Virus record (IMG/VR): IMGVR_UViG_3300006924_000033
Span: 1 to 49,553 of that record
Source of the DNA: a virus
Direction: 5' to 3' (one strand)
Length of the DNA stretch: 49,553 bases
The notes under the pieces were generated by a model. It made no database searches and was not told the DNA's origin. It worked only from the letters and a program-made list of their open reading frames with translations. Every line of letters starts with the position of its first letter. Within the stretch, counting starts at the first letter, position 1. Shown here in pieces: positions 143-39,891 of this stretch. Made by a program: the position numbers and the translations under genes.

Positions 143-150
143 CATAAATA
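143..150 (+). promoter_or_regulatory. Late promoter CATAAATA (leaderless geometry)
   Basis: The element matches the T4 late promoter box (TATAAATA, positions -13 to -6) in seven of eight bases. Counting from it, +1 falls on 156, the A of the next gene's ATG. There is no room for a ribosome binding site. Confidence 0.75.
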
Positions 151-155
151 CTAGC

Positions 156-392
156 ATGTCAGATAAGTTGGAAAAGATAATTGGTAAGATTGTCATGGAC
201 CTAATGCTTGAAGCACATGCCAAAGGCATTGCATTAAGTTATGAAGACATTTGTAAAATGGTAGGCATACCTGAACAAGACATCACAGACAGTAACGCAT
301 ATTTCACAATAAACGACGAGTTCATTGATGCCGTATCTGACAAAGATGTTAGGGAGGCTATGATAGAAAGAGCCTTCTCTACTTTACACTAG
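156..392 (+). CDS. Small hypothetical protein
   Basis: A 78-residue acidic, helical-looking protein that I do not recognise. No membrane segment, metal-binding cysteines or signal peptide is visible. The start is supported by the late promoter ending five bases upstream, which predicts a leaderless late mRNA. It is the first gene after a terminator and probably heads a late transcript reaching the zinc-finger and membrane-protein genes just downstream. Confidence 0.7.
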   Translation: MSDKLEKIIGKIVMDLMLEAHAKGIALSYEDICKMVGIPEQDITDSNAYFTINDEFIDAVSDKDVREAMIERAFSTLH

Positions 393-400
393 AGAAAATT

Positions 401-610
401 ATGCCAAAGAAAGAACAGAGTCTAGACTCTATACAAAAGCGACAACAAACATATGATGAAAAATGGGGACCATATCAATTACATAAAAGGCATTGCAAAG
501 CATGTAAAAAGACTTTTAAGTGGGCAGGCAGAGCCAAAACAAAAGGCTTCTTACGAGCAATGTTTAACAAAAACTGCGAAGCCTGTGTTAAAGAATCCCT
601 CAGTATTTAA
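401..610 (+). CDS. Small zinc-finger-like protein
   Basis: A 69-residue basic protein with two CxxC pairs (HCKAC near residues 32-36 and NCEAC near 58-62), separated by a basic stretch. This spacing suits a single zinc ribbon or treble clef, as in small nucleic-acid-binding proteins. The function is unknown. It begins eight bases after the previous stop, and its 3' end overlaps the likely start of the membrane-protein gene. The four cysteines make this the more credible frame over 453-585. Confidence 0.65.
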   Translation: MPKKEQSLDSIQKRQQTYDEKWGPYQLHKRHCKACKKTFKWAGRAKTKGFLRAMFNKNCEACVKESLSI

Positions 611-1040
611 AGTTGGATTAATATTATTTGGTGCTTTGGTAGTGAGCAGACTTTTACCATTGCCACCAAACAGCGAACCACTATTAGGTTTAGCAGTTCT
701 AACACCTTACTTAACTAAAAACAACCTAGCATTCTTATTACCATTAGGTGTAATGTTTGTGAGTGATTTGTTTATAGGTTTCCATAACAGTATGTTAATG
801 ACTTATTCAGCATTAGCATTAACGCCCTTCATTAGCAGAATGCTAGACAGCAAGTATGTGTCATTATTAAGCAGTTGGTTAGTATGGCATGTAATGGCAA
901 ACGCAGGCCAATGGTTCCCTCCATTTAGTCCAGAAGCATTGTTATTTGATATTAGATTTTTAATAAGTGGATTGTCTATTGTTGTACTTTTTGATGTAGT
1001 ACAAAAAATGACTTCAACTAATTTACAGTATTATAAATAA
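585..1040 (+). CDS. DUF6580-like multipass membrane protein
   Basis: About 151 residues with four to five hydrophobic segments. The pattern of an early RLLPLPPN, then a transporter-like core with LLPLGVMFVSDLFIGFH, resembles DUF6580, a family with an ECF-transporter S-component-like fold. Substrate and role are unknown. The frame is open back to an ATG at 453, but that start would overlap the zinc-finger gene by 158 bases, so I favour the GTG at 585, a 26-base overlap. A late promoter and tRNA gene follow directly. I am confident of the reading frame, less so of the start and family. Confidence 0.65.
   Translation: MLKNPSVFKVGLILFGALVVSRLLPLPPNSEPLLGLAVLTPYLTKNNLAFLLPLGVMFVSDLFIGFHNSMLMTYSALALTPFISRMLDSKYVSLLSSWLVWHVMANAGQWFPPFSPEALLFDIRFLISGLSIVVLFDVVQKMTSTNLQYYK
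1032..1039 (+). promoter_or_regulatory. Late promoter TATAAATA before the tRNA
   Basis: A perfect match to the T4 late consensus overlaps the end of the membrane-protein gene. Predicted +1 is A1045, five bases before the first base of the tRNA, so the tRNA would be made late with a very short 5' leader. Confidence 0.7.
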
Positions 1041-1049
1041 CACTACTAA

Positions 1050-1125
1050 GGGGCCATAGTTCAGTTGGGAGAACGTCTGGTTTGCAACCAGAAGGTCCGG
1101 GGTTCGAATCCCCGTGGCTCCACCA
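1050..1125 (+). tRNA. tRNA-Ala(UGC)
   Basis: A complete 76-base cloverleaf. The acceptor arm GGGGCCA pairs with TGGCTCC and includes the G3-U70 wobble that identifies alanine tRNAs. The anticodon loop TTTGCAA gives anticodon UGC, and the T arm carries GGTTCGAATCC. The 3' CCA is encoded (1123-1125). It lies between two membrane-protein genes, directly downstream of a late promoter. It reads GCA, a common alanine codon in these AT-rich genes. Confidence 0.97.
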
Positions 1126-2122: not shown

Positions 2123-2123
2123 T

Positions 2124-2342: not shown

Positions 2343-2652
2343 CATAGTCGACTTGACTGCTTACAGAGAAAAACTTAAGGCGGCTGAACTCGGTAACGAC
2401 ACTCTATTTGAAGAAACAATAGATGATGTCACAAGAGATCTAACAAAGTTTATGGTTCACTTAGGCATGGACTTGGATGTGGATATTACACATGAAAGTT
2501 TTGCTGTTTATTGTAGTACTGCCGTTGGCTATTACAAAAAAGCATTACGAGTAGCATATGGTTTAGAAGATTATAAATCAGAGTTGTCCAATTCAGATGC
2601 AACTATATGGGATTTAATAGAGGATATAAACAATAACAAAGATGATGAATAA
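2332..2652 (+). CDS. Hypothetical protein in the nadE operon
   Basis: A 106-residue acidic protein, apparently soluble and helical, with a short central region of alternating hydrophobics (FAVYCSTAVGYYKKALRVAYGL). No family is recognised. It overlaps both neighbours by 11 bases and so is likely translated together with the coiled-coil protein and NAD synthetase. Small proteins of this type with an acidic tail are common in T4-like marine phages. Confidence 0.65.
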   Translation: MKNNIVDLTAYREKLKAAELGNDTLFEETIDDVTRDLTKFMVHLGMDLDVDITHESFAVYCSTAVGYYKKALRVAYGLEDYKSELSNSDATIWDLIEDINNNKDDE

Positions 2653-3631
2653 GAAAACTGAACAAGCAAATTTAAAAAAGTTAATACTTGATTATAACAG
2701 AAAGCCTGTGTTGTCTCCTGCATTTGAAAAACTGCTAGACAGTTACATCAAAAGCGGAAAGTACATGTCAGTTGAAAAACTGCAAGTGCTACGAAATGAT
2801 ATAGTACAGAACTTAGTTGAGTACGCCAACAAATACAAAATAAGCAACGTCTGTGTTGGACTCAGTGGAGGCATAGATAGTGCCTTAACTGCAAGTTTAT
2901 TTAGAGATGCAGGCTATCATGTAATTGGTGTAACAATGCCTATTAATCAAATAGAAGATGAAACAGACAGAGGCTTTGAAACAGCAAAGGCACTAGGCAT
3001 AGACCACAGACATATTGATTTAACAGAAGCATACGAAAGTTTGCTTCAACAAGAATATAAAATTGATGCTAGTTTAATCAGCAATGATCACTCTAGTAAG
3101 ATTAGAAAAGGAAACATTCGAGCCAGATTGCGTATGATTACGTTGTACAATCTTGCTGGTGCGAGTCAAGGCTTTGTAGCAAGTACTGATAATTTTTCAG
3201 AACTAGCCGCAGGGTTTTGGACACTACACGGAGACGTGGGCGATGTATCGCCAATACAATCATTAAGTAAGAGTTGGGAAGTTCCTGCTCTTGCTGAAAT
3301 GCAAGGTGTACCCGATAGTGTCGTGTTTGCTGTTCCAACAGATGGATTAGGAATATCTAGTTCAGACGAGGATCAGTTTGGGTTCAGTTATCTTGAATTT
3401 GATTTAGCCTTATTCAAGTTACTGGAAAATGTAGACGGAGTGGAGTTCGAAAATACCATATCAGATATTGCCGGATTCAAAGATGTAAAGGACAAATTAA
3501 TAGTAGAAGAGGTCGCAAGTAGAATTAGAGGCACAACATACAAGAGATTCAATCCTTATAATCTTGCACATACGTTTGAAAAAGATCGATATGATCTACT
3601 AGATAAACTAGATAACCAATTGAGGAGATAA
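2642..3631 (+). CDS. nadE: NAD synthetase, ammonia-dependent type
   Basis: A 329-residue protein that would convert nicotinate adenine dinucleotide to NAD with ATP. The PP-loop SGGIDS lies near residues 75-80. Downstream are GNIRARLRM, the ASTDNFSE region, a GDVGD segment with PIQSLSK typical of NadE substrate binding, and PTDGL near residue 230. No glutaminase domain is present, so it should use ammonia. An N-terminal segment of about 50 residues precedes the usual NadE start. Two adjacent ATGs (2642, 2645) overlap the previous stop. A phage NadE could keep NAD high during infection. No NAMPT or other NAD gene is visible in this window. Confidence 0.92.
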   Translation: MMNKKTEQANLKKLILDYNRKPVLSPAFEKLLDSYIKSGKYMSVEKLQVLRNDIVQNLVEYANKYKISNVCVGLSGGIDSALTASLFRDAGYHVIGVTMPINQIEDETDRGFETAKALGIDHRHIDLTEAYESLLQQEYKIDASLISNDHSSKIRKGNIRARLRMITLYNLAGASQGFVASTDNFSELAAGFWTLHGDVGDVSPIQSLSKSWEVPALAEMQGVPDSVVFAVPTDGLGISSSDEDQFGFSYLEFDLALFKLLENVDGVEFENTISDIAGFKDVKDKLIVEEVASRIRGTTYKRFNPYNLAHTFEKDRYDLLDKLDNQLRR

Positions 3632-3991: not shown

Positions 3992-3999
3992 GATAAATA
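3992..3999 (+). promoter_or_regulatory. Late promoter GATAAATA (leaderless geometry)
   Basis: GATAAATACT matches the commonest late element of this genome. Position +1 falls on 4005, the A of the ATG of the radical SAM gene. Confidence 0.8.
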
Positions 4000-4004
4000 C
4001 TGCT

Positions 4005-5858
4005 ATGCTAAACTTATATCTGTGCCAACCTAACTTTAGATTTGGTATTGCAGGAAAAACTGGTTACTGGATTCCTTACAGCATTGGCTGTTTATGGAGT
4101 TATGCTAGTCAGTTTGATGATATAAAAGAAAATGTAGATCTCAAAGACATAATATTCCGCAGAGAAAATGTAGATACTCTAGTTGATAGACTAGAAGACC
4201 CAGACATAATAGCATTTAGTTGTTACATGTGGAACTGGGAATGGAGCAAAGCAGTTGCTCAAAAAGTCAAACAAAAATATCCTAAATGCAAAATAGTATT
4301 TGGTGGCCCACAAGTTACTGATAGACCAGATGAAGAAGAATTCTTTAAGCATCACAAGTATGTAGACTCAATTAGTTTAGCAGAAGGCGAATTAAGTTTT
4401 ACAGATATATTACGAAATCTAATCAACGGCAAACTAATAGAAAAAATATATAACTATCCAAGACTAACAGAATTAGACATACCAAGTCCTTACTTAACAG
4501 GTGTGTTTGAAAAGATTATAGCAGACAATCCAGGCGTACTATGGAATGGCACATTAGAAACTAATCGTGGCTGTCCATTTGCTTGTACATTTTGTGACTG
4601 GGGTGGCTTAACATATAGTAAACTTAAAAAGTTTCCTGAAGAAAAAGTATTACAAGAACTGCATTGGATGGCACATAACAAAATGGATTATGTAACAATA
4701 GCAGACGCAAACTTTGGTGTGTTTACAGATAGAGATATGAAGTTTACAGAAGAACTTGTAGCATTACAAAAAGAGTTTGGCTATCCACAGGTTGTTGATG
4801 CCACATGGTATAAGAACAGTTCAGAAGAGATAATGGAAATTGTTAAGAAGTTTATCAGCAGTGGCTTCAATAGAGGACTAACTTTAAGTGTACAAAGTAT
4901 GGACATGGATGTACTAGAAGAAATTAAAAGACGTAACATGGAGTTTAGTAATCTCAAACACATATTTGATATATGTAATAGAGAACAGATACCTAGTTAC
5001 ACAGAACTTATACTAGGCTTACCCAAAGAAACATTTGAAAGTTGGAGTAAAGGTTTATGTGATGTAATTGAAATGGGTCAACACAATGCTATTGAAAGTT
5101 GGTTAGCACAATTACTAGAGAACGCACACCTTAATACACCTGAGCAAAGAGCAGAACACGAAATAGACACGATAGTTGTGAAAGATTATATATCAGGCTT
5201 TGAGGAAGAAGATGGCATCAGCGAAAGTGTCACGTTAGTCCGCGGAACTAAGGACATGCCGATGCCTAAGTTTATAGACAGTTGGATGTATGCTTGGATG
5301 ATCAATAATTTTCACAACTACGGCTGGACACAGATCATCAGCAGGTTCCTACGCAAGTATAAAGATATGAGTTACTTGGAGTTTTATAATAGACTGTGGA
5401 CACTTATACAAGAAGACGATGGTTATGTTAAGCAGTTATTTGACACAGCAAAAGCACAACTCACAGAATACTTAGAGACAGGTATTGCTGATGGCTTTAG
5501 TGGACATACACTTATGTGGTCAGCACAAAGCGACTTTCACAAGGAGCCACTAAAAATATTTCAGTTCATTGATAAGCATTACAGTAGAGAATGGTTAGAC
5601 TTGCCAGAGAAGTATTACCCACAACTTATGAAACTACAAACGTTTTATGTTAGCCACCTAACTGTATCTTATCCAACACAAATGAATTTTGGATATAACT
5701 TTTTAGAATACATCAATGATGAGGACTCAGAATTATTAAAAGACAAAACAGAATACACCTTAGATTTAATCATGCCATGCGACAGTGAAGAAGAATACTT
5801 AGACAGAATGTATTACAAAAGAAGACAAGGTTGGGGCAAAGTTTTGTTTTCCACTTAA
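4005..5858 (+). CDS. Radical SAM protein with B12-binding-like N-terminal domain
   Basis: A 617-residue protein. Residues about 1-150 look like a cobalamin-binding (Rossmann) domain, with the typical IVFGGPQVT strand-turn. The radical SAM cluster motif is C190-PFA-C194-TF-C197, followed by a TIM-barrel-like region to about residue 370 and a long C-terminal extension. Relatives include methyltransferases and lipid- or sugar-modifying enzymes; the substrate is unknown. It stands alone between a terminator and an untranslated leader and is predicted to be translated from a leaderless late mRNA. A second radical SAM protein lies at 17969. Confidence 0.88.
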   Translation: MLNLYLCQPNFRFGIAGKTGYWIPYSIGCLWSYASQFDDIKENVDLKDIIFRRENVDTLVDRLEDPDIIAFSCYMWNWEWSKAVAQKVKQKYPKCKIVFGGPQVTDRPDEEEFFKHHKYVDSISLAEGELSFTDILRNLINGKLIEKIYNYPRLTELDIPSPYLTGVFEKIIADNPGVLWNGTLETNRGCPFACTFCDWGGLTYSKLKKFPEEKVLQELHWMAHNKMDYVTIADANFGVFTDRDMKFTEELVALQKEFGYPQVVDATWYKNSSEEIMEIVKKFISSGFNRGLTLSVQSMDMDVLEEIKRRNMEFSNLKHIFDICNREQIPSYTELILGLPKETFESWSKGLCDVIEMGQHNAIESWLAQLLENAHLNTPEQRAEHEIDTIVVKDYISGFEEEDGISESVTLVRGTKDMPMPKFIDSWMYAWMINNFHNYGWTQIISRFLRKYKDMSYLEFYNRLWTLIQEDDGYVKQLFDTAKAQLTEYLETGIADGFSGHTLMWSAQSDFHKEPLKIFQFIDKHYSREWLDLPEKYYPQLMKLQTFYVSHLTVSYPTQMNFGYNFLEYINDEDSELLKDKTEYTLDLIMPCDSEEEYLDRMYYKRRQGWGKVLFST

Positions 5859-5892: not shown

Positions 5893-5900
5893 GATAAATA
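5893..5900 (+). promoter_or_regulatory. Late promoter GATAAATA before a structured RNA
   Basis: GATAAATAAT lies between the radical SAM gene and the 6102 gene. Predicted +1 is 5906, one base before the first hairpin of a leader of about 195 bases. Confidence 0.7.
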
Positions 5901-6493: not shown

Positions 6494-6501
6494 GATAAAT
6501 A
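6494..6501 (+). promoter_or_regulatory. Late promoter GATAAATA before the lipase gene
   Basis: GATAAATACT forms a palindromic pair with the minus-strand element (ATTTATCGATAAAT). Predicted +1 is 6507, leaving a 20-base leader with the ribosome site GGTAGGAG before ATG 6527. Confidence 0.8.
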
Positions 6502-6526
6502 CTAGCATAATTAGGTAGGAGTAATT

Positions 6527-7342
6527 ATGACAGTAGAAAACAAACTTATTAGTGATAATCTGGAAGAGATATCACAAGCCAAAGTAATGGCACGTTTGGC
6601 AGGACGCAGTTACCTAGACCCCGATGACCCTGAAAGAAAAAAGAAAAGACCTCCTGGATTTGGCAAAAAGAATCCAGTGTTCGTTTCTGTAGAGAATGCC
6701 CAAGCATGGGTATACTATGGAGCAGGTAAAATAGTTGTAGCATGTAGAGGGACAGAGCCAACTCAGTTCGCTGATGTTCTAGCAGACTTAAAGACTATTC
6801 CTGTAAGACACGATAGAAATGGTATGGTTCATTCAGGATTTTGGGAAGAGGCTAACAAAGTCTACCCAGGCATTCTAGAGGCAGTAAAGGCCGGTAGAAA
6901 GAAAGACGAAAAAGTATATGTATGTGGGCACAGTTTAGGCGGTGCTATGGCAGTTTTAGTAGCAGAAATGTTATGCCACGACAAGATACCTGTTGAAGAA
7001 CTTAGAACTTTTGGACAACCAAGAGTAGGAACAAGGAAGTTTAGAAGACATTTAGAAGGTTGTAAAATAGGTTCATACCACAGATATGTAAATAACAACG
7101 ACATTGTGCCTAGAGTACCACCTGCATTGTTTGGATTTGTACATGGTGGCAAACTAATGTACATCAATAGTTATGGTAATATTAGAAACTCGACTATATG
7201 GCAAAGAATCAAAGACGGTTGGAGAGGCTTTTGGGCCGCATGTAAACAGTTTAAGTTCTTTGATTTTGTAGCAGATCACGGTATGCCACATTATATTCAG
7301 CATGTAGATAACCTAGATGAAGAGTCTCCGCAAGGTAAGTAG
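6527..7342 (+). CDS. Class 3 lipase-like alpha/beta hydrolase
   Basis: A 271-residue serine hydrolase. The nucleophile elbow GHSLGG puts the catalytic Ser at 136. The acid is Asp192 in NNNDIVPRVP, and the likely His is His255 in GMPHYI, the order expected for fungal-type (class 3) lipases. RGTE near residues 74-77 fits the oxyanion strand. There is no signal peptide, so it acts inside the cell or in the virion. It could attack host membrane lipids late in infection, which is inference. It has its own late promoter and heads a run of small genes. Confidence 0.9.
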   Translation: MTVENKLISDNLEEISQAKVMARLAGRSYLDPDDPERKKKRPPGFGKKNPVFVSVENAQAWVYYGAGKIVVACRGTEPTQFADVLADLKTIPVRHDRNGMVHSGFWEEANKVYPGILEAVKAGRKKDEKVYVCGHSLGGAMAVLVAEMLCHDKIPVEELRTFGQPRVGTRKFRRHLEGCKIGSYHRYVNNNDIVPRVPPALFGFVHGGKLMYINSYGNIRNSTIWQRIKDGWRGFWAACKQFKFFDFVADHGMPHYIQHVDNLDEESPQGK

Positions 7343-7349
7343 ATAAATA
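7342..7349 (+). promoter_or_regulatory. Late promoter GATAAATA
   Basis: GATAAATACT begins at the lipase stop codon. Predicted +1 is 7355, giving a 17-base leader with AGGAG before ATG 7372. Confidence 0.8.
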
Positions 7350-7371
7350 CTATTACAAATAGGAGATCAAA

Positions 7372-7536
7372 ATGGATAAACTTAAAGATTGGATATTTGA
7401 CAGAACACAAGAGAGAACCAGTTGGGACGGTGCAGTCCTAATAGGTGGTGGTATTGTAATGATACTAATACCAACAAGTTTAATAGGTTGGGGCATGATT
7501 GCATATGGTGCCTGGACAATTTATAAAGAGGAATAA
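7372..7536 (+). CDS. 54-residue membrane protein
   Basis: A 54-residue protein: a charged, amphipathic N-terminus of about 18 residues (DRTQERTSW) and then a hydrophobic segment from about 21 to 50 that may cross the membrane once or as a short hairpin (two halves split near Pro34). It has its own late promoter and a good ribosome site (TAGGAG). The next gene begins one base after the stop. No family is recognised. Size and topology would also fit a small holin-like protein, without further proof. Confidence 0.75.
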   Translation: MDKLKDWIFDRTQERTSWDGAVLIGGGIVMILIPTSLIGWGMIAYGAWTIYKEE

Positions 7537-11688: not shown

Positions 11689-11696
11689 GATAAATA
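11689..11696 (+). promoter_or_regulatory. Late promoter GATAAATA (leaderless geometry)
   Basis: GATAAATATC lies directly after clpP. Predicted +1 is 11702, the A of the ATG of a 54-residue gene. Confidence 0.75.
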
Positions 11697-11701
11697 TCTG
11701 T

Positions 11702-11866
11702 ATGGATCTATTAAAAGAATTTAAACCTCAAGTCTATACACCTAAAAAAGTAAACAAAGAAGGCTACGACGAAGACGGGGTACTTCACGATAAGTGCGGT
11801 ACACCTGATTGTTGCCAGTCTTGTGATACTGCTGAGGAGCAGGACAATGACAAAACCATCGATTGA
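11702..11866 (+). CDS. 54-residue cysteine-rich protein
   Basis: A 54-residue protein whose C-terminal half holds four cysteines in about ten residues (DKCGTPDCCQSCD), followed by an acidic tail. The pattern C-x4-CC-x2-C could bind zinc or an Fe-S centre. The ATG coincides with the predicted +1 of a late promoter. The gene overlaps the next start by 20 bases, and a ribosome site for the next gene (GAGGAG) lies within its codons. No family is recognised. Despite lying next to clpP it shows no known adaptor motif. Confidence 0.7.
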   Translation: MDLLKEFKPQVYTPKKVNKEGYDEDGVLHDKCGTPDCCQSCDTAEEQDNDKTID

Positions 11867-17034: not shown

Positions 17035-17957
17035 AAGAATTATGGGTAGAAAAATACAGACCTAACACAGTAGATGGATATGTATTTAGAGATATCAATC
17101 AACGTAAGCAGATAGAAGGCTGGATTAATGATGGTGCATTGCCACACTTACTGTTTAGTGGTGCTCCAGGTACAGGTAAAACTACATTAGCAAAGGTATT
17201 GCTACACAGTTTAGAAGTAGATCAATTTGATATACTTGAAATTAATGCTAGTAACGAAAATGGTATTGACGTTATTAGAGATAGAATCACAAACTTTGTG
17301 AGTACTATGCCGTTTGGAGAGTTTAAGTATGTATTGCTAGATGAAGCAGATTACATTACTCCTAATGGGCAGGCGGCGTTACGTGGTATGATGGAAATGT
17401 ATCATACAACTGCTAGGTTCATATTAACCTGTAACTACCCACAAAGAATTATCCCGGCTCTTCATTCTAGGTCCCAAGGTTTCCATATTGAGAAACTAGA
17501 CATAAATGAATTTACAGCCAGGATAGCAACTATCTGTGTTGAAGAGGGCGTACAGATAGATTTAGAAACCCTTGACACTTATGTACAAGCAAGTTATCCA
17601 GATCTTCGTAAGAGCATCAACTTGGTACAACAAAATGTAGTCGACGGTGTATTACAAAGTCCTCAAGATGGCGATGCCGCACAAAGCGACTGGATGCTAT
17701 CTATGGTAGAGTTATTCAAAGCAGGCAAATACAAAGAAGCAAGAACACTTATTTGTGATCAAGCAAGACCAGAAGAGTACGAAGATGTATTCAAGTTTTT
17801 GTACAGAAACTTAGATTTATGGGGAGCAGAGCCACTGAAGCAAGACCAAAGCATTGTTATCATAAGAGATGGTATGGTGAAGAGTGTGTCTTGTGCAGAC
17901 CCAGAGATTAACCTTAGTGCAACTCTAGTAGAACTAGAGATGAATGCTATGGGTTAA
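17031..17957 (+). CDS. 44: Clamp-loader ATPase, gp44-like
   Basis: A 308-residue AAA+ protein (T4 gp44 is 319). Walker A is SGAPGTGKTT near residues 43-52, Walker B VLLDEADYI near 101-109, and sensor 1 lies in the LTCNYPQRI segment. The SRC arginine-finger region reads HSRSQG near 145-150, with Ser in place of Cys. Small loader subunits with this layout open the sliding clamp and place it on primer-template DNA. A small subunit (gp62) is not visible in this window. The clamp itself is encoded far away at 45191. It is transcribed early with the small gene before it. Confidence 0.93.
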   Translation: MKELWVEKYRPNTVDGYVFRDINQRKQIEGWINDGALPHLLFSGAPGTGKTTLAKVLLHSLEVDQFDILEINASNENGIDVIRDRITNFVSTMPFGEFKYVLLDEADYITPNGQAALRGMMEMYHTTARFILTCNYPQRIIPALHSRSQGFHIEKLDINEFTARIATICVEEGVQIDLETLDTYVQASYPDLRKSINLVQQNVVDGVLQSPQDGDAAQSDWMLSMVELFKAGKYKEARTLICDQARPEEYEDVFKFLYRNLDLWGAEPLKQDQSIVIIRDGMVKSVSCADPEINLSATLVELEMNAMG

Positions 17958-17963
17958 TAAATA
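17956..17963 (+). promoter_or_regulatory. Late promoter AATAAATA (leaderless geometry)
   Basis: AATAAATATT overlaps the gp44 stop codon. Predicted +1 is 17969, the A of the next ATG. Confidence 0.7.
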
Positions 17964-17968
17964 TTAGC

Positions 17969-19510
17969 ATGAAAAAGAAAGCAGTTGTTATATCTGAATC
18001 TAACAAACAAAAGCCAAGAATATCTAAAGAAATAATTCGTTCTACTTTTCCAGCAAACTACAGATCTTTAGGTGCTCATGTTATCAAACACGAATTTGAA
18101 AAGTTAGGTGTAGAATCAACTGTTATAGATTTTTGTTTTCATTTTGACGAAGAAGACTTAATCAAAGGTGTAATAAATTTTTTACGCAATTCAGATGTAC
18201 AGTTTATATGTATAAGTGCCACTCTATCTATGGGACTAGAGCAAGAGTATATTGCACTTGCTCGTAAAATTAAAAGTAAATTGCCTAATGCAAAAATATT
18301 ATATGGAGGCAATAGAAGAGTACAACGTAACGACATGGAATACATGAAACATTGCGATGGTATTTTCTTAGGTAGATGTGCAGAAATGCTAACAGATTTT
18401 GTTGCTGGTAAAGACATGTCAAAGTTTATACAAAATCCAGAGTTTACAAATATTTTTGCTAACCATAATTATAATTATGACATTGAAAAACCTATTACAT
18501 ACGGTTTATTTAAAGATGATGACTTTTTAGAATCTACTGACGTAATAGGATTTGAAGTTGCATTAGGCTGTAAATTTAATTGTAGTTTTTGCAATTATCC
18601 ATTACGAGCGTCTAAGACTTTATATATGAATTGCGAAGAGCAACTTTATTACACAATGCAACACGCATATGATACATACGGTATTACACACTTTTACGCC
18701 GCAGACGATACAATTAATGAGTCAGATGAAAAACTTGAATTACTTGCTAAAGTTGTTAATAAATTAAGTTTCAAACCCAGAATAACATCTTTTGCTAGAC
18801 TTGATGTTATGGCAAAAAGACCTCACCAGATTGATTTGTATAAAGAAATTGGAATGAATGGTGCTAACTTTGGTATAGAAAGTTTTGGTAATGCCGCAAT
18901 AAAAGCCACAAGAAAGAAAAGCACAATAGAAGATCTTGTGTATGTTTCTCAAAGGTTAAGAAAAGAAATAGATGACTTTTGGATTAGTTCAGGTTTTATA
19001 TTTGGATTAGCAAACGACAGTTACGAAGAGTTTGAAAAAAATTTAAGATACTGTGAAGACAATTTACTTGTTGATAATGCTGGTACTATAACATTAATCA
19101 TTGAGCCTAAAAAGAATCATCCTGGCTACAAAGACTTTGGAGGAGAATGGTTAGCATGGGACGAAGGCGCCTTTGCTGATATAGATATATACCCAGAAAG
19201 ATTTGGTTACACCATAGACGAAAATACATTAGAATGGTCAAACGAATACACTAATAAATCAGAAGCAAAAGAACGTACTGACATAGCCTCAAAAGCAATA
19301 CAAAAAAGAAATGTCATAACAAATCATATTGAAGCATTTACTTGGCAAAGTGTCATGGCACAAGGCATAGCATCATCAAGAAACGACTGGTATGAACAAA
19401 AAGAAACCTTGTCAGGATTAGGTCTTGTTCAAAAAGCAACTTATATTACAGATCAAACAGTAAATAGGTATGTAAATAAAAAATTAAATTGGTTACTTAA
19501 TGAAGTATAA
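17969..19510 (+). CDS. Radical SAM protein, second, with B12-binding-like domain
   Basis: A 513-residue protein. Its N-terminal part (about 1-150, with the ILYGGNRRVQ strand-turn) looks cobalamin-binding, and the radical SAM motif is C201-KFN-C205-SF-C208 followed by the expected barrel strands. It differs in length and detail from the protein at 4005, so the two are distant paralogues. It heads a metabolic operon with the sugar dehydrogenase and SufE, the latter possibly relevant for its Fe-S cluster. It starts at the predicted +1 of a late promoter. Confidence 0.88.
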   Translation: MKKKAVVISESNKQKPRISKEIIRSTFPANYRSLGAHVIKHEFEKLGVESTVIDFCFHFDEEDLIKGVINFLRNSDVQFICISATLSMGLEQEYIALARKIKSKLPNAKILYGGNRRVQRNDMEYMKHCDGIFLGRCAEMLTDFVAGKDMSKFIQNPEFTNIFANHNYNYDIEKPITYGLFKDDDFLESTDVIGFEVALGCKFNCSFCNYPLRASKTLYMNCEEQLYYTMQHAYDTYGITHFYAADDTINESDEKLELLAKVVNKLSFKPRITSFARLDVMAKRPHQIDLYKEIGMNGANFGIESFGNAAIKATRKKSTIEDLVYVSQRLRKEIDDFWISSGFIFGLANDSYEEFEKNLRYCEDNLLVDNAGTITLIIEPKKNHPGYKDFGGEWLAWDEGAFADIDIYPERFGYTIDENTLEWSNEYTNKSEAKERTDIASKAIQKRNVITNHIEAFTWQSVMAQGIASSRNDWYEQKETLSGLGLVQKATYITDQTVNRYVNKKLNWLLNEV

Positions 19511-22581: not shown

Positions 22582-22589
22582 GATAAATA
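22582..22589 (+). promoter_or_regulatory. Late promoter GATAAATA (leaderless geometry)
   Basis: GATAAATACT with predicted +1 at 22595, the A of the ATG of the next gene. It supports that ATG over an in-frame codon about 15 bases earlier. Confidence 0.8.
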
Positions 22590-22594
22590 CTTGT

Positions 22595-23146
22595 ATGTCA
22601 AAATATACATCTGAAGATATAAACAACACTATTAAAGCAATCAACCAAGATCGTACACTTCTTGATATGCTATTAGAACTAGATGGTCTGTTTGAGCACC
22701 TAGGTATTTATGCATTTAAGAACTGGAAGAAGGGCAAGATAGTCGAAGTAGGACGTCCTAGTAAATACTGGATTGACCTAACATTGATGTATGATAAAAA
22801 CGATATGCCAGACCCAGAAGGAGCATTACGTTTAACTAACAAAGATTGCAAAGTTAAATTTAATGAAGATGTATTTGAATATCCTAAAAAGATAATGGGT
22901 CCAGATGATATAGAAGTCGAAATCAAACGTAATAGAGTGTACAGAAAAACTAAAACAGAATCAGATCCTGTATGGTTAGTCGAATTAAGAATACCAAGAA
23001 AGTATTTAGAACATTATGATGAAGCAGAAACTAAAATAAATGACGATGTTATATCTACACAGGATGCAGACGAAGGTGCAATGTTACAACAAGGAGTTGA
23101 TCCATCAGCACCTGCACCAGCAGATCCACTAGGAGGCGGCATATAA
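22595..23146 (+). CDS. Hypothetical protein, possibly structural
   Basis: A 183-residue protein with a helical start (EDINNTIKAINQDRTLLDMLLELDGLFEHLG), a beta-rich middle, and a Pro/Ala/Gly-rich tail (PSAPAPADPLGGGI). The family is not recognised. The ATG at 22595 is preferred because it equals the predicted transcription start; earlier in-frame codons would lie upstream of the transcript. It overlaps the next gene by one base and probably opens a late operon reaching the ACP-like and spanin genes. Confidence 0.65.
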   Translation: MSKYTSEDINNTIKAINQDRTLLDMLLELDGLFEHLGIYAFKNWKKGKIVEVGRPSKYWIDLTLMYDKNDMPDPEGALRLTNKDCKVKFNEDVFEYPKKIMGPDDIEVEIKRNRVYRKTKTESDPVWLVELRIPRKYLEHYDEAETKINDDVISTQDADEGAMLQQGVDPSAPAPADPLGGGI

Positions 23147-25013: not shown

Positions 25014-25823
25014 ATGGATCACTACCAAACATTGGGGGTTAGCCGCGATGCTGATGCCTCCGCTATCAAAAAAGCATATCGCAAATTAGCGAGTAAGCAT
25101 CATCCTGACAAAGGCGGTAACCCTGAAGAATTCAAAAGAGTGCAAGAAGCATACGACACACTAAGTGATCCACAAAAACGTAGTCAGTATGACAATCCTA
25201 ATCCTTTTGAAGGCTTTGGTGGTGGTGATCCTTTTAGTGGCGCCAATCCGTTTGGAGATATATTTAGAGATATATTTGGACAAAGAGGTCAACGTCGTAG
25301 AGAACAAAACTTTGATGCTCAAACAGATATACTATTATCATTGGAAGATGTGTTTTTTGGTGTAACAAAAAGAATAGATGTTGGTACAGGTGTTATAGAT
25401 CTCAATATACCAAAAGGCACAGAAGAAGGTACTCGTTTCACTTTACATGGCAAAGGCCCACAGCAAGATCCTAACTTACCGCCAGGTAATTTATTTGTAA
25501 GAGTCAGATATCAGCCACATAGAGAATTTGCTAAAAATGGTAACGACCTTATTGGTATTGTAGAAATTGATTATCTAGAAGCCATTGTTGGTACCACTAT
25601 TGAAGTTAGGCATGTTAATGGCAGGATGTTATCAGTAAACATTCCGGCACTAACACAACCTAACTCTAGACTTAAATTAAGAGGAGAGGGTTTTACAAAT
25701 CCACGTAGCAGTATAGTAGGAGACTTCCTTTTACAAGTGTCTGTTACTGCACCCGAATCCATAGATCATGATCATGTTAACCTTATACGAAGAATTAATC
25801 AAGAACGTAGGAGAAATAATTAA
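25014..25823 (+). CDS. DnaJ/CbpA-like co-chaperone
   Basis: A 269-residue J protein. The J domain fills residues 1-65, with the HPD motif at 30-32 (KHHPDKGG). A Gly/Phe-rich linker with repeated PF-G-G follows to about 100, then the C-terminal substrate domains ([29 protein letters not shown]). There is no CxxCxGxG zinc centre, so it is the type II or CbpA kind. It would stimulate host DnaK. Only two bases separate the predicted start of transcription from its ATG. The clpA gene begins eight bases after its stop. Confidence 0.92.
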
Positions 25824-25826
25824 ATA
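25819..25826 (+). promoter_or_regulatory. Late promoter ATTAAATA (leaderless geometry)
   Basis: ATTAAATACT differs from the consensus at two bases but keeps the TAAATACT core. Predicted +1 is 25832, the A of the clpA ATG. It overlaps the end of the DnaJ-like gene. Confidence 0.55.
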
Positions 25827-25831
25827 CTATT

Positions 25832-28009
25832 ATGAATGTTGAAGGAATTATAGAAAAAGCATACGAAATATCTAATCAATTTAGTCATGAGTATATGACT
25901 CTAGAGCATGTTGCTCTGGCTCTTATTAAAGATAAAGAGATTAAAAAAGTATTAGGTGAATGTAATGTTGAAATTAAACAATTAGAAGCAGACATTGTGA
26001 CTTATCTTAATGACGATGAGTACAACAATCTTAAATCAGAAGGCGGTAGCACAGGCAAGCCTAAGAAAACTGTAGCAGTTGAACGTGTCTTTCAAAGAGC
26101 ATTTGCACAAAGTATCTTTAATGGTAGAGATAAAATATCTGCAATTGATTTGCTAGTTAGTATTACAAATGAAGAAAATTCACATAGTGCATATTTTTTA
26201 GCAGTTAATGGTTGCCATAGAGAAAATTTAATTGAAATATTAGGCGATGTCGTTGAAGGCGAACTAGTAGAAGAAACACAAGACTACATTAAAAACTTAA
26301 ACGAAGAAGCAATGAACGGAAGTATTGATCCTCTCATTGGTAGAAGCGAAGAAGTAAATGATGTTGTTGAAATACTTGCTAGACGTAAAAAGAATAACGT
26401 ATGCTTAGTTGGTGAACCCGGAGTAGGTAAAACTGCTATTGCAGAAGGTATGGCATGGAAAATTATCAACAAGCAAGTTCCTAAAACACTAGAAGATAAA
26501 ACTGTTTATCAAATAGATGTTGGTACAATGTTAGCAGGTACAAAGTTTAGAGGTGACTTTGAAGAAAGACTAAAAACAGTTTTAGAACAGATAGAAAAGA
26601 ACGAAAATGCTATTCTGTTTATTGACGAGATACATATGATTATGGGTGCCGGTAGTGCTGGTAGCAGTCAAGTAGATGCGGCAAACATGTTAAAGCCATT
26701 GTTAGGCAAAGGTAAACTATTGTGTATTGGTGCAACAACACCAGATGAATTTGCAAGTACATTTGAAAAAGACAGAGCATTAATGCGTAGGTTTGCAAGA
26801 CTAGACGTAGAAGAAACAACACTTAAAGATACTATTAAAATATGCCAAGGCTTACAGCCATACTACGAAGAGTTTCACAAAGTCAAGTATGAAGAAGGTG
26901 CTATAGAAAAAGCATGTGAATTGGCAGACAGATATATTAAGAATAAGTACTTTCCAGACAAAGCATTAGACATTGTAGATGCCGCAGGTGCAGTCACTAA
27001 AGTATTAGAAAAGAAAGTTGTAAATCTTGACTCAGTAGTAGCACAGGTATCAAAGATTGCTAAAATTAAACAAGAAGTAGTAGATGTTAAAGACACAAAA
27101 GGCTTCAGCAAGTTAGATAAAAAGATTAAAAAGAAAGTGTTTGGACAAGACGAAGCAGTCGATAAACTAGTAGAAAGTATACTTGTTAGTAAAGCAGGCC
27201 TAAGAGAACCAAACAAACCAATTGGTAGTTTCCTATTTGTAGGACCGACTGGTGTAGGTAAAACAGAAACAGCAAGAGCATTAGCAGACGAATTAGATAT
27301 TAAACTTGTTAAGTTTGACATGTCAGAGTATATGGAAAGACATAGTGTAAGTAAACTAATTGGTGCTCCTCCAGGTTATGTAGGACACGCAGAAGGTGAA
27401 CTAGGACAAGGCATGTTGCTTTCTGAAATTGATAAGAATCCTAATTGTGTATTGCTACTAGATGAAGTAGAAAAAGCCGCACCAGAAGTATTACAAGTGT
27501 TACTACAAGTAATGGACGATGGTAGACTTACAGGTGCAACAGGCAAGCAAGTAGACTTCAGTAATGTTACACTTATAATGACAAGTAACTTAGGTGCCGC
27601 CAAGGCAGAAACAAGCAAGATTGGATTTGGTGAAACATCACATACAGACACAGATATAAAAGCAGTCAAAAGTTTCTTCACACCAGAGTTTAGAAACAGG
27701 ATAGACTCTTATGTTAAGTTTAACAAACTAGGAATGAAAGAAGTTAATCTTATTATTGATAAAATTGTTAGAGAAACAAACGAATTACTTGCTAGTAATG
27801 ACAGTAAAGTTAGTATTGAACTTACCAAAGCGGCTAAGAAATATATTGCAGATAACGGATTTGAACCTAGCATGGGTGCAAGGCCTTTAAAAAGATTGTT
27901 CGAAGATGTTGTCAAGAAGCCAATTAGTAAAAAAATATTGTTTGATAAAATAGAGGAAGGCGTAGTACTTGTAGATTATATTGAGCAGTTTGAATTCACT
28001 GTCAAATGA
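25832..28009 (+). CDS. clpA: ClpA-like AAA+ unfoldase
   Basis: A 725-residue protein (E. coli ClpA 758) with all parts. The N domain is residues 1-140. The first AAA+ module has Walker A GEPGVGKT at 194-201 and Walker B LFIDEIHM near 262. The second has GPTGVGKT at 471-478 and LLLDEVEKA near 542. A ClpP-docking tripeptide, IGF, lies at 597-599, the place of IGL in ClpA. No ClpB middle coiled coil is present. It would thread proteins into ClpP; the phage clpP is at 11091. It starts at the +1 of a late-type promoter and overlaps the next gene by four bases. Confidence 0.93.
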
Positions 28010-29449: not shown

Positions 29450-29457
29450 GATAAATA
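29450..29457 (+). promoter_or_regulatory. Late promoter GATAAATA before the collagen-like fibre
   Basis: GATAAATACA with predicted +1 at 29463, then a 26-base leader ending with AGGAA and ATG 29489. Confidence 0.8.
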
Positions 29458-29488
29458 CATTATAATTGCAAATTAGAATAGGAATACT

Positions 29489-32400
29489 ATGCCAAATGTA
29501 ACAGGAGATAATTTAACTTTTAATATAGACGGGATCACCGATAATCAGATCCTAGTTTACGATTCTGCACAAGGAATTTTTGTAGCACAAGATAGTTTGT
29601 CTTCAGATGCCAATGCCGCCGTTACTGGTGGTGCTAATGTTGGTGCTTCAGGCATTGGACTATTCTCAGCAAAAGACGGTTCACAATTAAACTTTAAAAA
29701 GATACAAGGCTCAGGTGCAACAACTGTAACTGAATCTGCAAACGTTATTACTGTTTCCTCAACAGCATATACACTACCAACACCATTAAGCATTCACAAT
29801 GTGAATGGCAATACAAATATCTTCTCAGGTAGAAACTTTGGTGATAATGCTAATATCACAGCATACGCAGGTATATTAAATAACGCAAACTATCCTACTA
29901 ACAGTCAAAGTGCAGGATTTGATGCTAAAACAAGATTTGTTATTAGTTCAAACGATGCCGCAGATGTAGAACTTAGTTCACAACATAGTTTAATATTAGG
30001 AACAAAAAGCACAGATGGTCATATTGAAGTTAGAAGTGCAAACAGTACTGTATTTTATGTAGGTAGTGCAAGTAGTACAACACCAGCATTAAAAATAAAT
30101 TCTAATAGAAGTACAACATTTGCTAACGCATTTACATTACCAACATCAGATGGTACTAACGGACAAGTACTTGTAACAAATGGTTCAGGTGGTGTTAGTT
30201 GGACAACATTACAAACTGGTGGTTTAACTGCTAGTCAACTAACTGCCAACTTAGCAAATTATATTCCTAAGAGTGCCACAAGTGCACCAGATACAACAAT
30301 GTCATATGACATTGGTAACAGCAATTACAAATATTTAAATATATTTGCAAACAGATTTAGAGGAACAGCAGACTCGGCCATTAGATTAGAAGATGGCTCA
30401 ACTATTATTACAGCGGCAACATTAGCAAACGCAGTCAACAAAACAAATAATTTAAGTGACTTACCAGATGCCGCAACAGCAAGAACAAATTTAGGTGTTT
30501 ACAGCAAAGCAGAAGTTGATGCCAATATTGCATCAGCACAATTACAAAATGCTATAAGCACAGTTACTAGTGTTGGCTCAGCAAATACAATCAGTGCCAC
30601 AAGTGCCACCCACGCAATTAGATTTGAGGGCGGAACAGGTATTGATGTAAATCAATATACAGCCAACAATACTATACAGATTTCAAAAACAGATGCTATC
30701 ACAGGCGTATTTAAAAACGTCGATGTAGATGGCACACTTCTTATTGCAGATAACAATAATGATACATTAAATTTAGTTAGCGGTAGTAATGTAAGTTTTA
30801 CTGCTAATCCAGGAACAGATTCAATTATAATTGATGCTACATTAAATGATAGTAGTATTGACAAGTACACTAAAGCAGAAGTTAATACAGCAATTACCTC
30901 TAATGTATCTGCATTAAGATATTATAAGAGTTTTACAGGCGATTCAGGTTCAACAGATGCTAGTGCCAAAGACGATACATTTAATATTGTTGGTGGTACA
31001 GGTATAACAACATCAGTTACAGGCGATACAGTAACAATTAATAATACCCAACTAAATGATGGTATATTTAAAAATATTAGTGTTGCTGGACAAGACTTAA
31101 TTATTGCAGAAAATAATCAAGATACATTAAATTTTGTAGCAGGTAGCGGTATTTCGATTACTGCTGATGCAAGTACTGATACTATTACAATTAATAACAC
31201 AGGCAGTGGCGGAGGCGGTGGAGCCGGCGAAGCATTTAAAACTGTAAGTGTACAAGGTGGTAATAGTGTAGTAGCAAATGTAGCCGCAGACCAATTAACA
31301 TTTATAGCAGGTGCTAATGCAACAATATCAGCAGATAGCAATGCTCAAACAATTACAATCGATGCTACCGGTTCAGGTTCAGGAGTCAAAGGTGATACTG
31401 GAGCAACTGGCCCAGCAGGTAGTGATGGGGCAAAAGGACAAAAGGGTGAAGTAGGAGAGACTGGCGCAACAGGAGCCACAGGTCCACAAGGAAATGTAGG
31501 TAATACAGGACCTGCAGGAGCCAATGGAGACAAAGGTTCAAAAGGAGATCAAGGTGCCCAGGGAACAACTGGTGCAACTGGAGATAAAGGTGCACAAGGA
31601 GATGTTGGACCAACAGGACCAGCAGGTGCAACTGGACCAGCAGGAAACGATGGAGCAAAAGGCGAAGTTGGCCCACAAGGACCACAAGGAACTGCCGGAG
31701 ATAAAGGAGCCACTGGAGCAACAGGACCTCAAGGAGATGCAGGACCAACAGGACCACAAGGAACTGCTGGAGATAAAGGTGAAGTTGGAGCAACTGGACC
31801 ACAAGGACAAAAAGGTGAAATAGGTGCTGGTACTAACCAAACACTAAGTATGACAGGTAATGTCATTTCAATTAGTGGCGGTAGTAGTAATGTTGATATA
31901 AGTTCAGCATTAGATAGTGTTGATGCCTCAGTTGCCGTTGCAAATGTTTCCCCAAGTGGTGGCTCTGAAGGCGACTTATGGTGGGCAAGTGATGACGGTG
32001 ATCTATACATTTATTATGATAGTTCATGGGTAGCGGCCTCATCAGCAGGAGATAAAGGACAAAAAGGTGATACTGGACAAAAAGGTGAAACTGGAGCCAC
32101 AGGTGCTCAAGGTACAACTGGTGCTCAAGGTGTAGCAGGTCCAACAGGTCCACAAGGATCAAAAGGTGATATAGGTCCACAAGGTTCAACTGGTGCTCAA
32201 GGTGCCACAGGACCTCAAGGTGCTCAAGGACAGAAGGGAGCCACAGGTGCTGATAGTACAGTAGCAGGTCCAACAGGACCAGCAGGAGCAACAGGACCAG
32301 CAGGTCCAACAGGTCCTCAGGGAGATGCTGGTAACGATGGAGCCAAAGGACAAAAAGGAGAATTAGGACCACAAGGTGCAACTGGACCACAGGGTGGACA

Positions 32401-37808: not shown

Positions 37809-37848
37809 ATATACATAATTTAGCAAAAACAGACGGTAGGAGGTCTTT

Positions 37849-38223
37849 ATGCAAAACTTAAATACAACAAATCAAAGCAAAGATAAAATTACAGCACCAC
37901 TAGGTTACTGGATTAGTTCGCTTACTTTGATTGACAAGGCATTGCCTAGTTACAATATCCAACTTACTGGATTAGAAAGCATGTGGTACAATCACGAAGA
38001 AAACATTGATCACCCAGAAGGTAGCGAATATCCAACTGGTGTCAATACTGCTCACAGAAATGTGATGGTGAAAAGAGTATGTGATAGTGTTTATGCTAGA
38101 ACAGGTATCAACCCTGCAGATTATTCAAATGTTATTCATGCAAGTACATCACCTGGTAGAAACAAAGATGGCAGTTTCAGAGATGATGTTGTTGAAGGTA
38201 GATATGTTTTGAGGAATGTGTAA
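37849..38223 (+). CDS. Early hypothetical protein
   Basis: A 124-residue soluble protein with no recognised family. It contains a MWYNHEENIDHPEGSEYPTGVNTAHRN stretch and ends RDDVVEGRYVLRNV. It is the first gene of an early operon of three (37849-39229) with a strong ribosome site, so it is probably made in quantity soon after infection. A role in host takeover is plausible from position only. Confidence 0.65.
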   Translation: MQNLNTTNQSKDKITAPLGYWISSLTLIDKALPSYNIQLTGLESMWYNHEENIDHPEGSEYPTGVNTAHRNVMVKRVCDSVYARTGINPADYSNVIHASTSPGRNKDGSFRDDVVEGRYVLRNV

Positions 38224-38480
38224 TGGAACTTTTAGAAATTAAACAAGCAATTAAAAACGGTAACTTTAGTTTGTCAGAACTTAACGAACTAAGTGCATTT
38301 ACCAATTCTGTTAAAACACTTAATGCTAAAGCAAGTCTAAGTGTCGGCGACAATGTATTTGTTGTTCAAAAAACAAAACGCACACCTGGTGTTATTACCA
38401 AAGTGAATGTTAAGAAGGCTATTGTAGATATGCGAGGCCGTTCATATAGTGTTCCACTTTCAATGATAGAGGCCGCTTAA
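38223..38480 (+). CDS. Early hypothetical protein with KOW/SH3-like core
   Basis: An 85-residue basic protein. The last two thirds (LSVGDNVFVVQKTKRTPGVITKVNVKKAIVDMRGRSYSVPLSMIE) look like a small SH3 or KOW barrel, often used to bind RNA or proteins. The family is not recognised. It shares one base with the previous stop and one with the next start, so it is translationally coupled. It is early expressed. Confidence 0.65.
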   Translation: MELLEIKQAIKNGNFSLSELNELSAFTNSVKTLNAKASLSVGDNVFVVQKTKRTPGVITKVNVKKAIVDMRGRSYSVPLSMIEAA

Positions 38481-39229
38481 TGAATATTAAGAAAGCAAGA
38501 ACAGGTAAATGGTTTGAGGATCAGTATAGTCTTACTGATCTTCTTTCATTGTCAGTAGCAGTAAACAGAGTAAATGGTGGTTACATCAAAAAGGATGCCA
38601 ACATCGAAGAAGATGAAAACGGTTATCAAAAGAAATTGCCTAACCTGTTTATTATCAATAACCACTTAGGTATTGAAAAATTCAAAACATCTCGTATTGA
38701 TAAAACACTAGATACCTATTACAATGATATCTCAGTTGTTGAAAGCGATAGCGAAAATGTTGAGCATATGATTAAATATTTCAAAGGCCTAAGTCTAAAA
38801 GCAATCAAACGTGACATCAGTGACTTTGAAAAATCGATCCTAGGACTTATTAATAAGGAATTTGTTCAATACAAGGACATTGGTATTATTGCAAGTTTGC
38901 CTAGTGTATATGAAAACGGACAAAAGCAACGTGCATTTAACAAAATGGAAAAAGAACTTGCACAACAAAGTCAGCATGTTGGAAGACTACATGAACGTGA
39001 AACATTTAATGTTGAAATACTTCACAAGAAATTTATTTGGAGAAGTAACAGTTATTTGTATGTTGCCAAAGAAGGCAACTCCAATATTGTAAAATTCTTT
39101 TCACAAAAGTCTAATGCTGACGTAGGTGATAGCATTACTATTACTGCATTTGTCAAAGATCATACAAGTGGCAAAATGTCACGTGGTGCTGAAACTTACT
39201 TGAACAGAGTTAAGTTTTCTGAAGAGTAG
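38480..39229 (+). CDS. Early protein with OB-like C-terminal domain
   Basis: A 249-residue basic protein. The C-terminal 70 residues (KKFIWRSNSYLYVAKEGNSNIVKFFSQK, then VGDSITITAFVKDHTSGKM, then TYLNRVKF) show an OB-fold-like pattern, with a final VKDH-type strand as in nucleic-acid-binding domains. The first 160 residues are helical and unrecognised. It ends the early operon and overlaps the convergent minus-strand gene by about 20 bases. A DNA- or RNA-binding role is likely but inferred. Confidence 0.65.
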   Translation: MNIKKARTGKWFEDQYSLTDLLSLSVAVNRVNGGYIKKDANIEEDENGYQKKLPNLFIINNHLGIEKFKTSRIDKTLDTYYNDISVVESDSENVEHMIKYFKGLSLKAIKRDISDFEKSILGLINKEFVQYKDIGIIASLPSVYENGQKQRAFNKMEKELAQQSQHVGRLHERETFNVEILHKKFIWRSNSYLYVAKEGNSNIVKFFSQKSNADVGDSITITAFVKDHTSGKMSRGAETYLNRVKFSEE

Positions 39230-39878
39230 CAATTAAATAAACCATAACCCTTTGCATAGTGTCCGGTTCTACAGTAAGGTCCGGGCAACTATGCCAACCT
39301 TTACTGCTTCTTGGTAATATGTATGCCCTATTAGGAACATAAGGCATTTGGTGTCCCATTCGTACTAATTTACTATCTTCGCCAAATGTAGGATCTAGTC
39401 CTTCGTCTATGGCTTGATCATAAGCACAATCAACCTCCCAAAACATAGTACCTGTGTGTGCAAATTCATCTGTATCTGCTAATGAATGCTGAACTGTATA
39501 ATAGTAAGAAGGGTGATCTACGTGAACATCATGTACTGAATTTTTGTTTGTGTCCATCCACATAAACGGTTGATTGATGTTTACATTACTTGACATATTC
39601 ATTACATTACCTATTGCATCTAAAACCTCTTGGTTTCTATACACATATTCTGTGGCTATTTGCAATGCTTCTTGTGGGTCGTCTGGACCTATATGATACC
39701 CATGTCTACCTGGTAGTTCCTCGTTTTGCCATTGATTCCATGGTATACAATTTTGTACCTGTGCGTACAAATCAGGGTGCATAAAATTTTCTACATCCAT
39801 AACGTGTAGTTTATCTGTTTCAATTGGTGCTGTATCTAATATTCTATCTACAGTCCATTTAGTGTATTCTGTACTCAT
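39210..39878 (-). CDS. 2OG-Fe(II) oxygenase, third of three (minus strand)
   Basis: A 222-residue protein on the minus strand. Iron and 2OG ligands can be placed: HxD in VHDVHVDHPS, a distal His in RSSKGWHSCPD, and an Arg in MQRVMVYLIA near the C-terminus. A beta-helix core links them. The start ATG at 39878 is at the +1 of a perfect TATAAATA late promoter, with no leader. It faces the early operon and overlaps its last gene. The substrate is unknown; it is a divergent member compared with the other two oxygenases. Confidence 0.78.
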   Translation of the reverse strand: MSTEYTKWTVDRILDTAPIETDKLHVMDVENFMHPDLYAQVQNCIPWNQWQNEELPGRHGYHIGPDDPQEALQIATEYVYRNQEVLDAIGNVMNMSSNVNINQPFMWMDTNKNSVHDVHVDHPSYYYTVQHSLADTDEFAHTGTMFWEVDCAYDQAIDEGLDPTFGEDSKLVRMGHQMPYVPNRAYILPRSSKGWHSCPDLTVEPDTMQRVMVYLIATLQKT

Positions 39879-39883
39879 ACATA

Positions 39884-39891
39884 TATTTATA
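39884..39891 (-). promoter_or_regulatory. Late promoter TATAAATA, minus strand (leaderless geometry)
   Basis: Perfect late consensus on the minus strand (plus-strand TATTTATA). Predicted +1 is 39878, the A of the oxygenase ATG. It lies five bases from the plus-strand element at 39897, so the two diverge back to back. Confidence 0.8.

Follow-up and report, generated by a model that had tools for sequence, protein, structure and literature searches.

The DNA analysed here, termed the window, comprises positions 1 to 49,553 of the IMG/VR virus record IMGVR_UViG_3300006924_000033 (49,553 bases, G+C content 36%) and is a fragment of a large marine T4-like phage. It carries genes for a T4-type DNA polymerase (42395-45100, phrog_262), a clamp-loader subunit (17031-17957) and a head maturation protease (11091-11681), and also encodes virion structural proteins, a large tail fibre protein and a ClpA-like ATPase. 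Among isolates, the DNA polymerase is most similar to those of Sinorhizobium phage Phosso (48.0%) and Agrobacterium phage Atu_ph07 (43.5%), and the close relatives of the window are IMG/VR contigs. The subject of this study is a set of genes whose start codon follows a putative T4-type late promoter box at a distance of exactly five bases, an arrangement predicted to give rise to leaderless late mRNAs.

The strict T4 late box TATAAATA occurs four times in the window, against 6.8 occurrences expected, and the actual late box of the window is NATAAATA. ATAAATA was found at 22 sites on both strands, and at seven of them (143, 3992, 11689, 17956, 22582, 39891 on the minus strand, and 28345) an ATG begins exactly five bases after the box. 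Site 28345 was dropped because it is internal to a gene and TAG comes after its ATG. In the following, ‘gap’ denotes the number of bases between the late box and the start codon, ‘leaderless’ a gap of 5 and ‘led’ a longer leader. Gene starts at gap 5 thus account for six of the 22 sites, where approximately 0.08 would be expected (binomial P ~1e-10), using a background rate of 0.0035 per site (range 0.0015 to 0.0098 for other spellings of the same seven letters in 14 records). Gene 25832 has the variant box ATTAAATA with the five-base spacing intact. The preliminary description of this DNA had named seven genes with the box, five bases and ATG; their coordinates and spacing held, although the box of 25832 differs from the ATAAATA of the others. 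Its estimate of about 17 late boxes was also borne out (seven at gap 5 and some ten that are led, distant or ahead of a tRNA gene), but not its statement that the leaderless genes are all unrelated, as 4005 and 17969 both have a radical-SAM and B12-binding match and resemble each other with E = 5e-11. None of the seven genes has GGAG, AGGA, GAGG or AAGG at -20 to -4. For the minus-strand gene starting at 39878 another ATG stands at gap 1, in a different frame, and gene 22595 has an in-frame TTG five codons upstream of its ATG.

A gap histogram of 169 loci and the window, comprising 500 ATAAATA sites and requiring an open reading frame (ORF) of at least 50 amino acids after the ATG, placed 57 sites at gap 5 and no more than nine at each of the other gaps between 0 and 14, with a broad hump at approximately 15 to 45; only identical contexts were merged, so that strains of one species count separately. 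ATACATA, the only one of 11 control words with a comparable gap-5 peak (23 sites), was set aside as its listed sites represent one coding stretch of a ClpA-like gene, and TTAAATA, a near-variant of the box that served as a control word, had 13 sites at gap 5.

Whole records were counted in 20-kb pieces, whereby sites at piece borders were lost, with 20 alternative spellings of the motif serving as controls and ORFs of at least 40 amino acids; KVP40 (220 of 245 kb), Atu_ph07 (400 of 490 kb) and contig G003 (340,000 of 342,607 bases) were covered in part. Gap-5 boxes made up 8 of 34 in contig G010, 16 of 121 in G001, 26 of 101 in G005, 8 of 118 in G003 and 11 of 89 in G002, and among the isolates 9 of 45 in Pelagibacter phage HTVC008M, 7 of 56 in Pelagibacter phage Mosig, 3 of 42 in Melnitz and 2 of 47 in P-SSM4, with 0.04 to 0.55 expected across whole records. 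G010 (92 kb) belongs to the window's own species and holds its sites, and is thus not independent. The excess reached P <= 1e-6 in all five contigs, HTVC008M and Mosig, and was weaker in Melnitz (P 0.0014) and P-SSM4 (P 0.015), whereas no gap-5 site with an ORF was detected in T4 (0/65), KVP40 (0/28), Syn9 (0/38), S-ShM2 (0/35) or Atu_ph07 (0/102). The trait therefore marks a set of marine T4-like phages. This agrees with the preliminary description, which held that such a set of leaderless late genes is not a feature of T4, and the scan of related marine phages that it proposed revealed a sharp gap-5 peak in jumbo contigs, HTVC008M and Mosig.

Further records (G004, G006-G009, Phosso, P-SSM2, CBB, PA5oct, SCTP-2 and Vibrio phage 2.275.O) were searched by pattern only, without a histogram. 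The pattern and its reversed control matched 9 and 1 times in G004, 8 and 4 in PA5oct, 10 and 8 in SCTP-2, 3 and 3 in P-SSM2 and 2 and 0 in CBB, and neither matched in Phosso or 2.275.O; T4 gave 2 and 0 and Atu_ph07 5 and 2, none of them with an ORF of at least 40 amino acids. G006 was left out as a copy of G001, since its 14 sites repeat G001 sites at a constant offset.

The late box of T4 is described as spanning positions -13 to -6 (PMC1524935), which makes the sixth base after the box +1 and would place +1 on the A of the ATG at gap 5. The base composition at this position was examined in led promoters, in which no start codon biases it. In the jumbo relatives, A was found at +1 in 63% and T at -1 in 58% of the led promoters (n = 147), as compared with A at +1 in 34% of boxes without a gene (n = 155; P = 6e-7). 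The values for A at +1 and T at -1 were 68% and 60% in the led promoters of T4 (n = 25) and 83% and 67% in those of Atu_ph07 (n = 30), and cyanophage led promoters (n = 30) showed A in 43% and G in 40%.

The two classes of promoters also differ in their translation features. Shine-Dalgarno words were present at 4 of 50 leaderless sites vs 148 of 183 led sites, the latter having been picked by gap alone. At gap 5 the start codon is ATG in 88 cases, GTG in one and TTG in one, whereas behind Shine-Dalgarno sites of the same records ATG accounts for 449, GTG for 40 and TTG for 38 of 527 starts. Leaderless mRNAs have a strong preference for AUG as start codon. When 7-letter words at -12 to -6 of first ATGs were ranked (top six per record, at least three sites), ATAAATA emerged as the enriched non-Shine-Dalgarno start word in G010, G001, G005, G002, HTVC008M and Mosig (77- to 262-fold) as well as in Melnitz (47-fold), and HTVC008M was additionally enriched for CTAAATA (three sites). 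G003 has five ATAAATA start-word sites, and T4, KVP40 and Atu_ph07 have none at -12 to -6, their top words being Shine-Dalgarno-like. The idea put forward in the preliminary description, that the box itself also acts as a translation-start signal, was not supported, since leaderless and led sites share the same promoter-like context and the start codon of led orthologs lies further on, behind a Shine-Dalgarno sequence.

All nine gap-5 ATGs of HTVC008M are annotated starts, belonging to genes for a phytanoyl-CoA dioxygenase-domain protein, CsgF, the baseplate tail-tube cap (phrog_230), the gp2 DNA end protector (phrog_429), the tape measure (phrog_58), the gp25 baseplate wedge protein (PF04965) and three hypothetical proteins. 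In the HTVC008M record these ATGs lie at 6280, 7562, 16007 (minus strand), 18916 (minus strand), 19456, 31132, 49760, 75559 and 142360. The gp2 genes of HTVC008M, Mosig and Melnitz, with 39-41% identity, all stand at gap 5. Gap-5 genes common to G001 and G005 include those for the terminase large subunit, gp25, a head-tail adaptor and a CHASE2-cyclase, the last being leaderless in two jumbo contigs and in the Methylophilales phage Melnitz (L193:9449-11521, L202:3346-5415 and L329:14825-16876). Others encode a tail-tube-like protein and a tape-measure-like protein (weak match, E = 1e-5) in G001, a virion structural protein in G005 and a tail tube protein in Mosig. Family scans covered 15 of the 60 listed gap-5 proteins and the gp2 proteins of Mosig and Melnitz.

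Orthologs were compared as reciprocal best matches with a box in both records, admitting gaps of 5, 6, or at least 15 with a Shine-Dalgarno-like word. Both members were at gap 5 in 17 pairs (about 13 genes), 30 pairs had switched, one record having gap 5 and the other a led start behind a Shine-Dalgarno-like word, and 100 pairs fell into neither class, including two with a gap-6 member and six with equal leader length. Switching is exemplified by gene 22595, which reads GATAAATACTTGT|ATG in the window and GATAAATAGATGT|ATAGGAGACAAGATG in G005, and by gp25, which reads TATAAATAGTCGT|ATG in HTVC008M and TATAAATAACTGT|AGGAGAAAACTATG in Melnitz. Gene 22595 is leaderless down to 65% identity and led with a Shine-Dalgarno sequence in more distant relatives. 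Gene 25832 has TAAATA, five bases and ATG, with T or G at -12, in 12 of the 26 listed ortholog rows and not in the other 14, and the ortholog of gene 4005 is at gap 5 in G005 but not in G001. Among G005 gap-5 genes found in G001, eight are at gap 5, two are led and seven are without a box.

Table 1. Putative leaderless and led late promoters of the window.
Feature	Position	Strand	Gene
Late box CATAAATA (143-150), five-base spacer and ATG	143..158	+	156-392, 78 aa, no family match
Late box GATAAATA, spacer and ATG	3992..4007	+	4005-5858, radical SAM, B12-binding
Late box GATAAATA, spacer and ATG	11689..11704	+	11702-11866, 54 aa; gap 5 kept in 4/4 ortholog rows
Late box AATAAATA, spacer and ATG	17956..17971	+	17969-19510, radical SAM; gap 5 kept in 3/4 ortholog rows
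Late box GATAAATA, spacer and ATG	22582..22597	+	22595-23146, virion structural protein, phrog_12928
Variant late box ATTAAATA, spacer and ATG	25819..25834	+	25832-28009, ClpA-like ATPase, phrog_4871
Late box TATAAATA (39884-39891), spacer and ATG	39876..39891	-	39210-39878, 222 aa
Led late promoter for comparison: box, GGAG leader and ATG	6494..6529	+	6527
Led late promoter for comparison: box, GGAG leader and ATG	7342..7374	+	7372
Led late promoter for comparison: box, AGGA leader and ATG	29450..29491	+	29489, tail fibre

Further boxes were noted in the window. Late boxes on opposed strands stand back to back at 6486-6501, where the pair abuts as TATTTATC|GATAAATA, and at 39884-39904. TATAAATA at 1032-1039 lies directly ahead of the tRNA-Ala(tgc) gene (1050-1125), and a late promoter at this position may drive transcription of the tRNA. 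GATAAATA at 5893-5900 is followed by approximately 200 bases without a clear gene up to a small ORF at 6102, and no Rfam match was obtained in this stretch. Metabolic genes of the window encode an alternative oxidase and an NAD synthetase-like protein (48168-48761 and 2642-3631).

From these sequence comparisons we consider it very probable that many late genes of the window and its relatives have gp55-type late promoters that give leaderless mRNAs, with the RNA starting on the A of the ATG; this reading is supported by the position of the box, the +1 signature at led promoters of the jumbo relatives, the scarcity of Shine-Dalgarno words, the near-exclusive use of ATG, conservation and absence from T4. 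The promoters would be of the T4 type, a gp55-type sigma factor together with the host RNA polymerase recognising the box NATAAATA at -13 to -6, and the role of the box would be confined to placing the 5' end of the RNA. Where RNA synthesis begins on the start codon, the message would probably be translated from its 5'-terminal AUG without a Shine-Dalgarno sequence. The remaining promoters have leaders with Shine-Dalgarno sequences, and genes pass between both states in evolution. In the jumbo relatives, 69 leaderless vs 147 led promoters with a Shine-Dalgarno sequence were counted, i.e. approximately one-third of such promoters are leaderless. A likely benefit is compactness, as promoter and start codon would be accommodated in 16 bases. 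The 47 leaderless genes behind a gene on the same strand lie at a median of 24 bases from it (19 of 47 at 20 bases or less), as compared with 50 bases for genes with the box further up (21 of 152; P = 0.008), and these shorter distances fit a compact signal.

Several findings weigh against this reading. The assignment of +1 relies on T4 and on base composition, and the +1 signal is weak in led promoters of pelagiphages (n = 45), which have A in 76% vs 55% at boxes without a gene (n = 47) and T at -1 in 40% vs 45%. G003 is mixed, with ATAAATA outside its six most enriched start words and a high reversed-pattern control (12 against 5), and many orthologs of leaderless genes are without any box. 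The gp55-type sigma family phrog_12791 matched 11 of 18 records (G001-G005, G009 and five jumbo isolates), and gp55 is annotated in HTVC008M, Mosig, Melnitz, P-SSM4 and S-ShM2, but the window, G007, G008 and G010-G013, all of them possibly incomplete, gave no gp55-type match. Finally, G001 also uses gap 6 (seven sites; L182, L184, L189-L191). Several of the six-base-spacer sites in G001 have conserved coding starts.

These seven sites would also suit real promoters whose RNA starts a few bases off the ATG, with very short leaders or heterogeneous starts, so that the genes would be nearly leaderless. This seems improbable to us, as the pooled peak is one base wide: in whole records gaps 3 to 8 were represented by 3, 2, 88, 9, 5 and 7 sites. 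It is just as improbable that the box is no promoter at these genes but, as an A/T-rich element at -13 to -6 within longer transcripts, enhances translation or binds the ribosome. The box does sit where a Shine-Dalgarno sequence would be, such words are mostly missing, and of the 63 leaderless genes with a called neighbour, 47 lie behind a same-strand gene from which read-through could reach them. The other 16, however, are divergent from the upstream gene (by simple ORF calls), and starts are ATG in 88 of 90 cases against 449 of 527 at Shine-Dalgarno starts. Moreover, G at -13 is common to leaderless (51%) and led promoters (67%) of the jumbo relatives and rarer at boxes without a gene (31%).

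That the spacing arose by chance in A/T-rich DNA can be practically dismissed. A weaker shuffle test, allowing one mismatch and not requiring a gene, was only suggestive, with eight matches vs 3.76 expected and eight being reached by 6 of 100 shuffles; counts of the exact box ahead of genes, by contrast, revealed an excess both in the window (P ~1e-10) and in seven other records (P 1e-6 to 1e-39), including G010 with the window's sites, and the same test gave zero in T4, KVP40, Syn9, S-ShM2 and Atu_ph07. An extension of the leaderless reading, which we regard as rather doubtful, is that one kind of promoter serves two late translation programmes, leaderless and Shine-Dalgarno-dependent, with ribosomes changed during infection and protein amounts or timing differing between them. 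The leaderless class, which includes terminase, gp25, gp2, tape measure and sensory or metabolic proteins, would then form a programme of its own, and gain or loss of a short leader could act as a tuning switch for single genes.

Two further ideas on leaderless translation found no support. Phage-encoded bS21, considered as a partner, showed no simple correlation: it is present in 12 of 23 records, being found in HTVC008M, Mosig, Melnitz and G001-G004 but also in Atu_ph07, Phosso and SCTP-2, which have no gap-5 excess, and none was found in the 250 kb of G005, the record richest in gap-5 sites. Imitation of a host start habit was likewise not supported by the SAR11 loci, a narrow and redundant sample, since 120 loci around the 16S gene (893,408 bases) showed no clear -10 box peak ahead of ATG. 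Shine-Dalgarno words were present at 3% of 482 distinct starts in these loci and at 35-36% of starts in the SAR11 phages HTVC008M and Mosig.

If our reading holds, leaderless mRNAs should form a systematic class in marine phages; among these are isolates propagated on a cultured SAR11 strain, in which the prediction is directly testable. The five-base spacing between box and ATG could serve as a simple marker of late promoters in pelagimyophages, for which late-promoter prediction is reported as unsuccessful in PMC7029224. The Melnitz paper searched for TATAAAT (PMC9004378). In addition, natural ortholog pairs that share the kind of promoter but differ in the presence of a leader could be used to determine the effect of the leader on protein yield.

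Leaderless mRNAs and T4 late promoters are each known, and it is their systematic combination that is new; no report of a leaderless late-gene class in T4-like phages was found in the titles and displayed abstracts of the papers listed by literature searches, nor was any on Syn9 transcription start sites. T4 late promoters, which depend on gp55, gp33 and gp45, are described as an 8-base TATA box without a conserved -35 site, located about one turn before the start (PMC1524935, PMC2988020). The same kind of box is found here, at a predicted -13 to -6, but the smallest gap seen in T4 is 12. The cyanophages S-PM2 and Syn9 are likewise described as having late promoters of the form NATAAATA, with the first base free (PMC2984593), identical to the box found here; the difference lies in the near absence of gap-5 sites from Syn9, S-ShM2 and P-SSM4. 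According to the AR9 paper, phage transcripts are ‘often leaderless’, while its AR9 leaders measure 26-491 nt (PMC5312081), and leaderless phage mRNA as such is therefore not new. The same paper describes the phiKZ late promoter motif TATG, which has a start-codon-like ATG at the transcription start. This resembles our sites, putative late phage promoters that would likewise have an ATG at that point, but the motif is unrelated and read by a phage multisubunit RNA polymerase. In bacterial ‘TA-led’ genes, a -10 box approximately 10-12 bases before the start codon is taken as the sign of a leaderless gene (PMC3160421), and in Caulobacter 375 leaderless mRNAs are reported to be translated as well as led ones (PMC4117421). 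In both the bacterial genes and those described here a box just ahead of the start codon would mark the leaderless gene, the box being that of a host sigma factor in the former and probably that of a phage late sigma factor in the latter.

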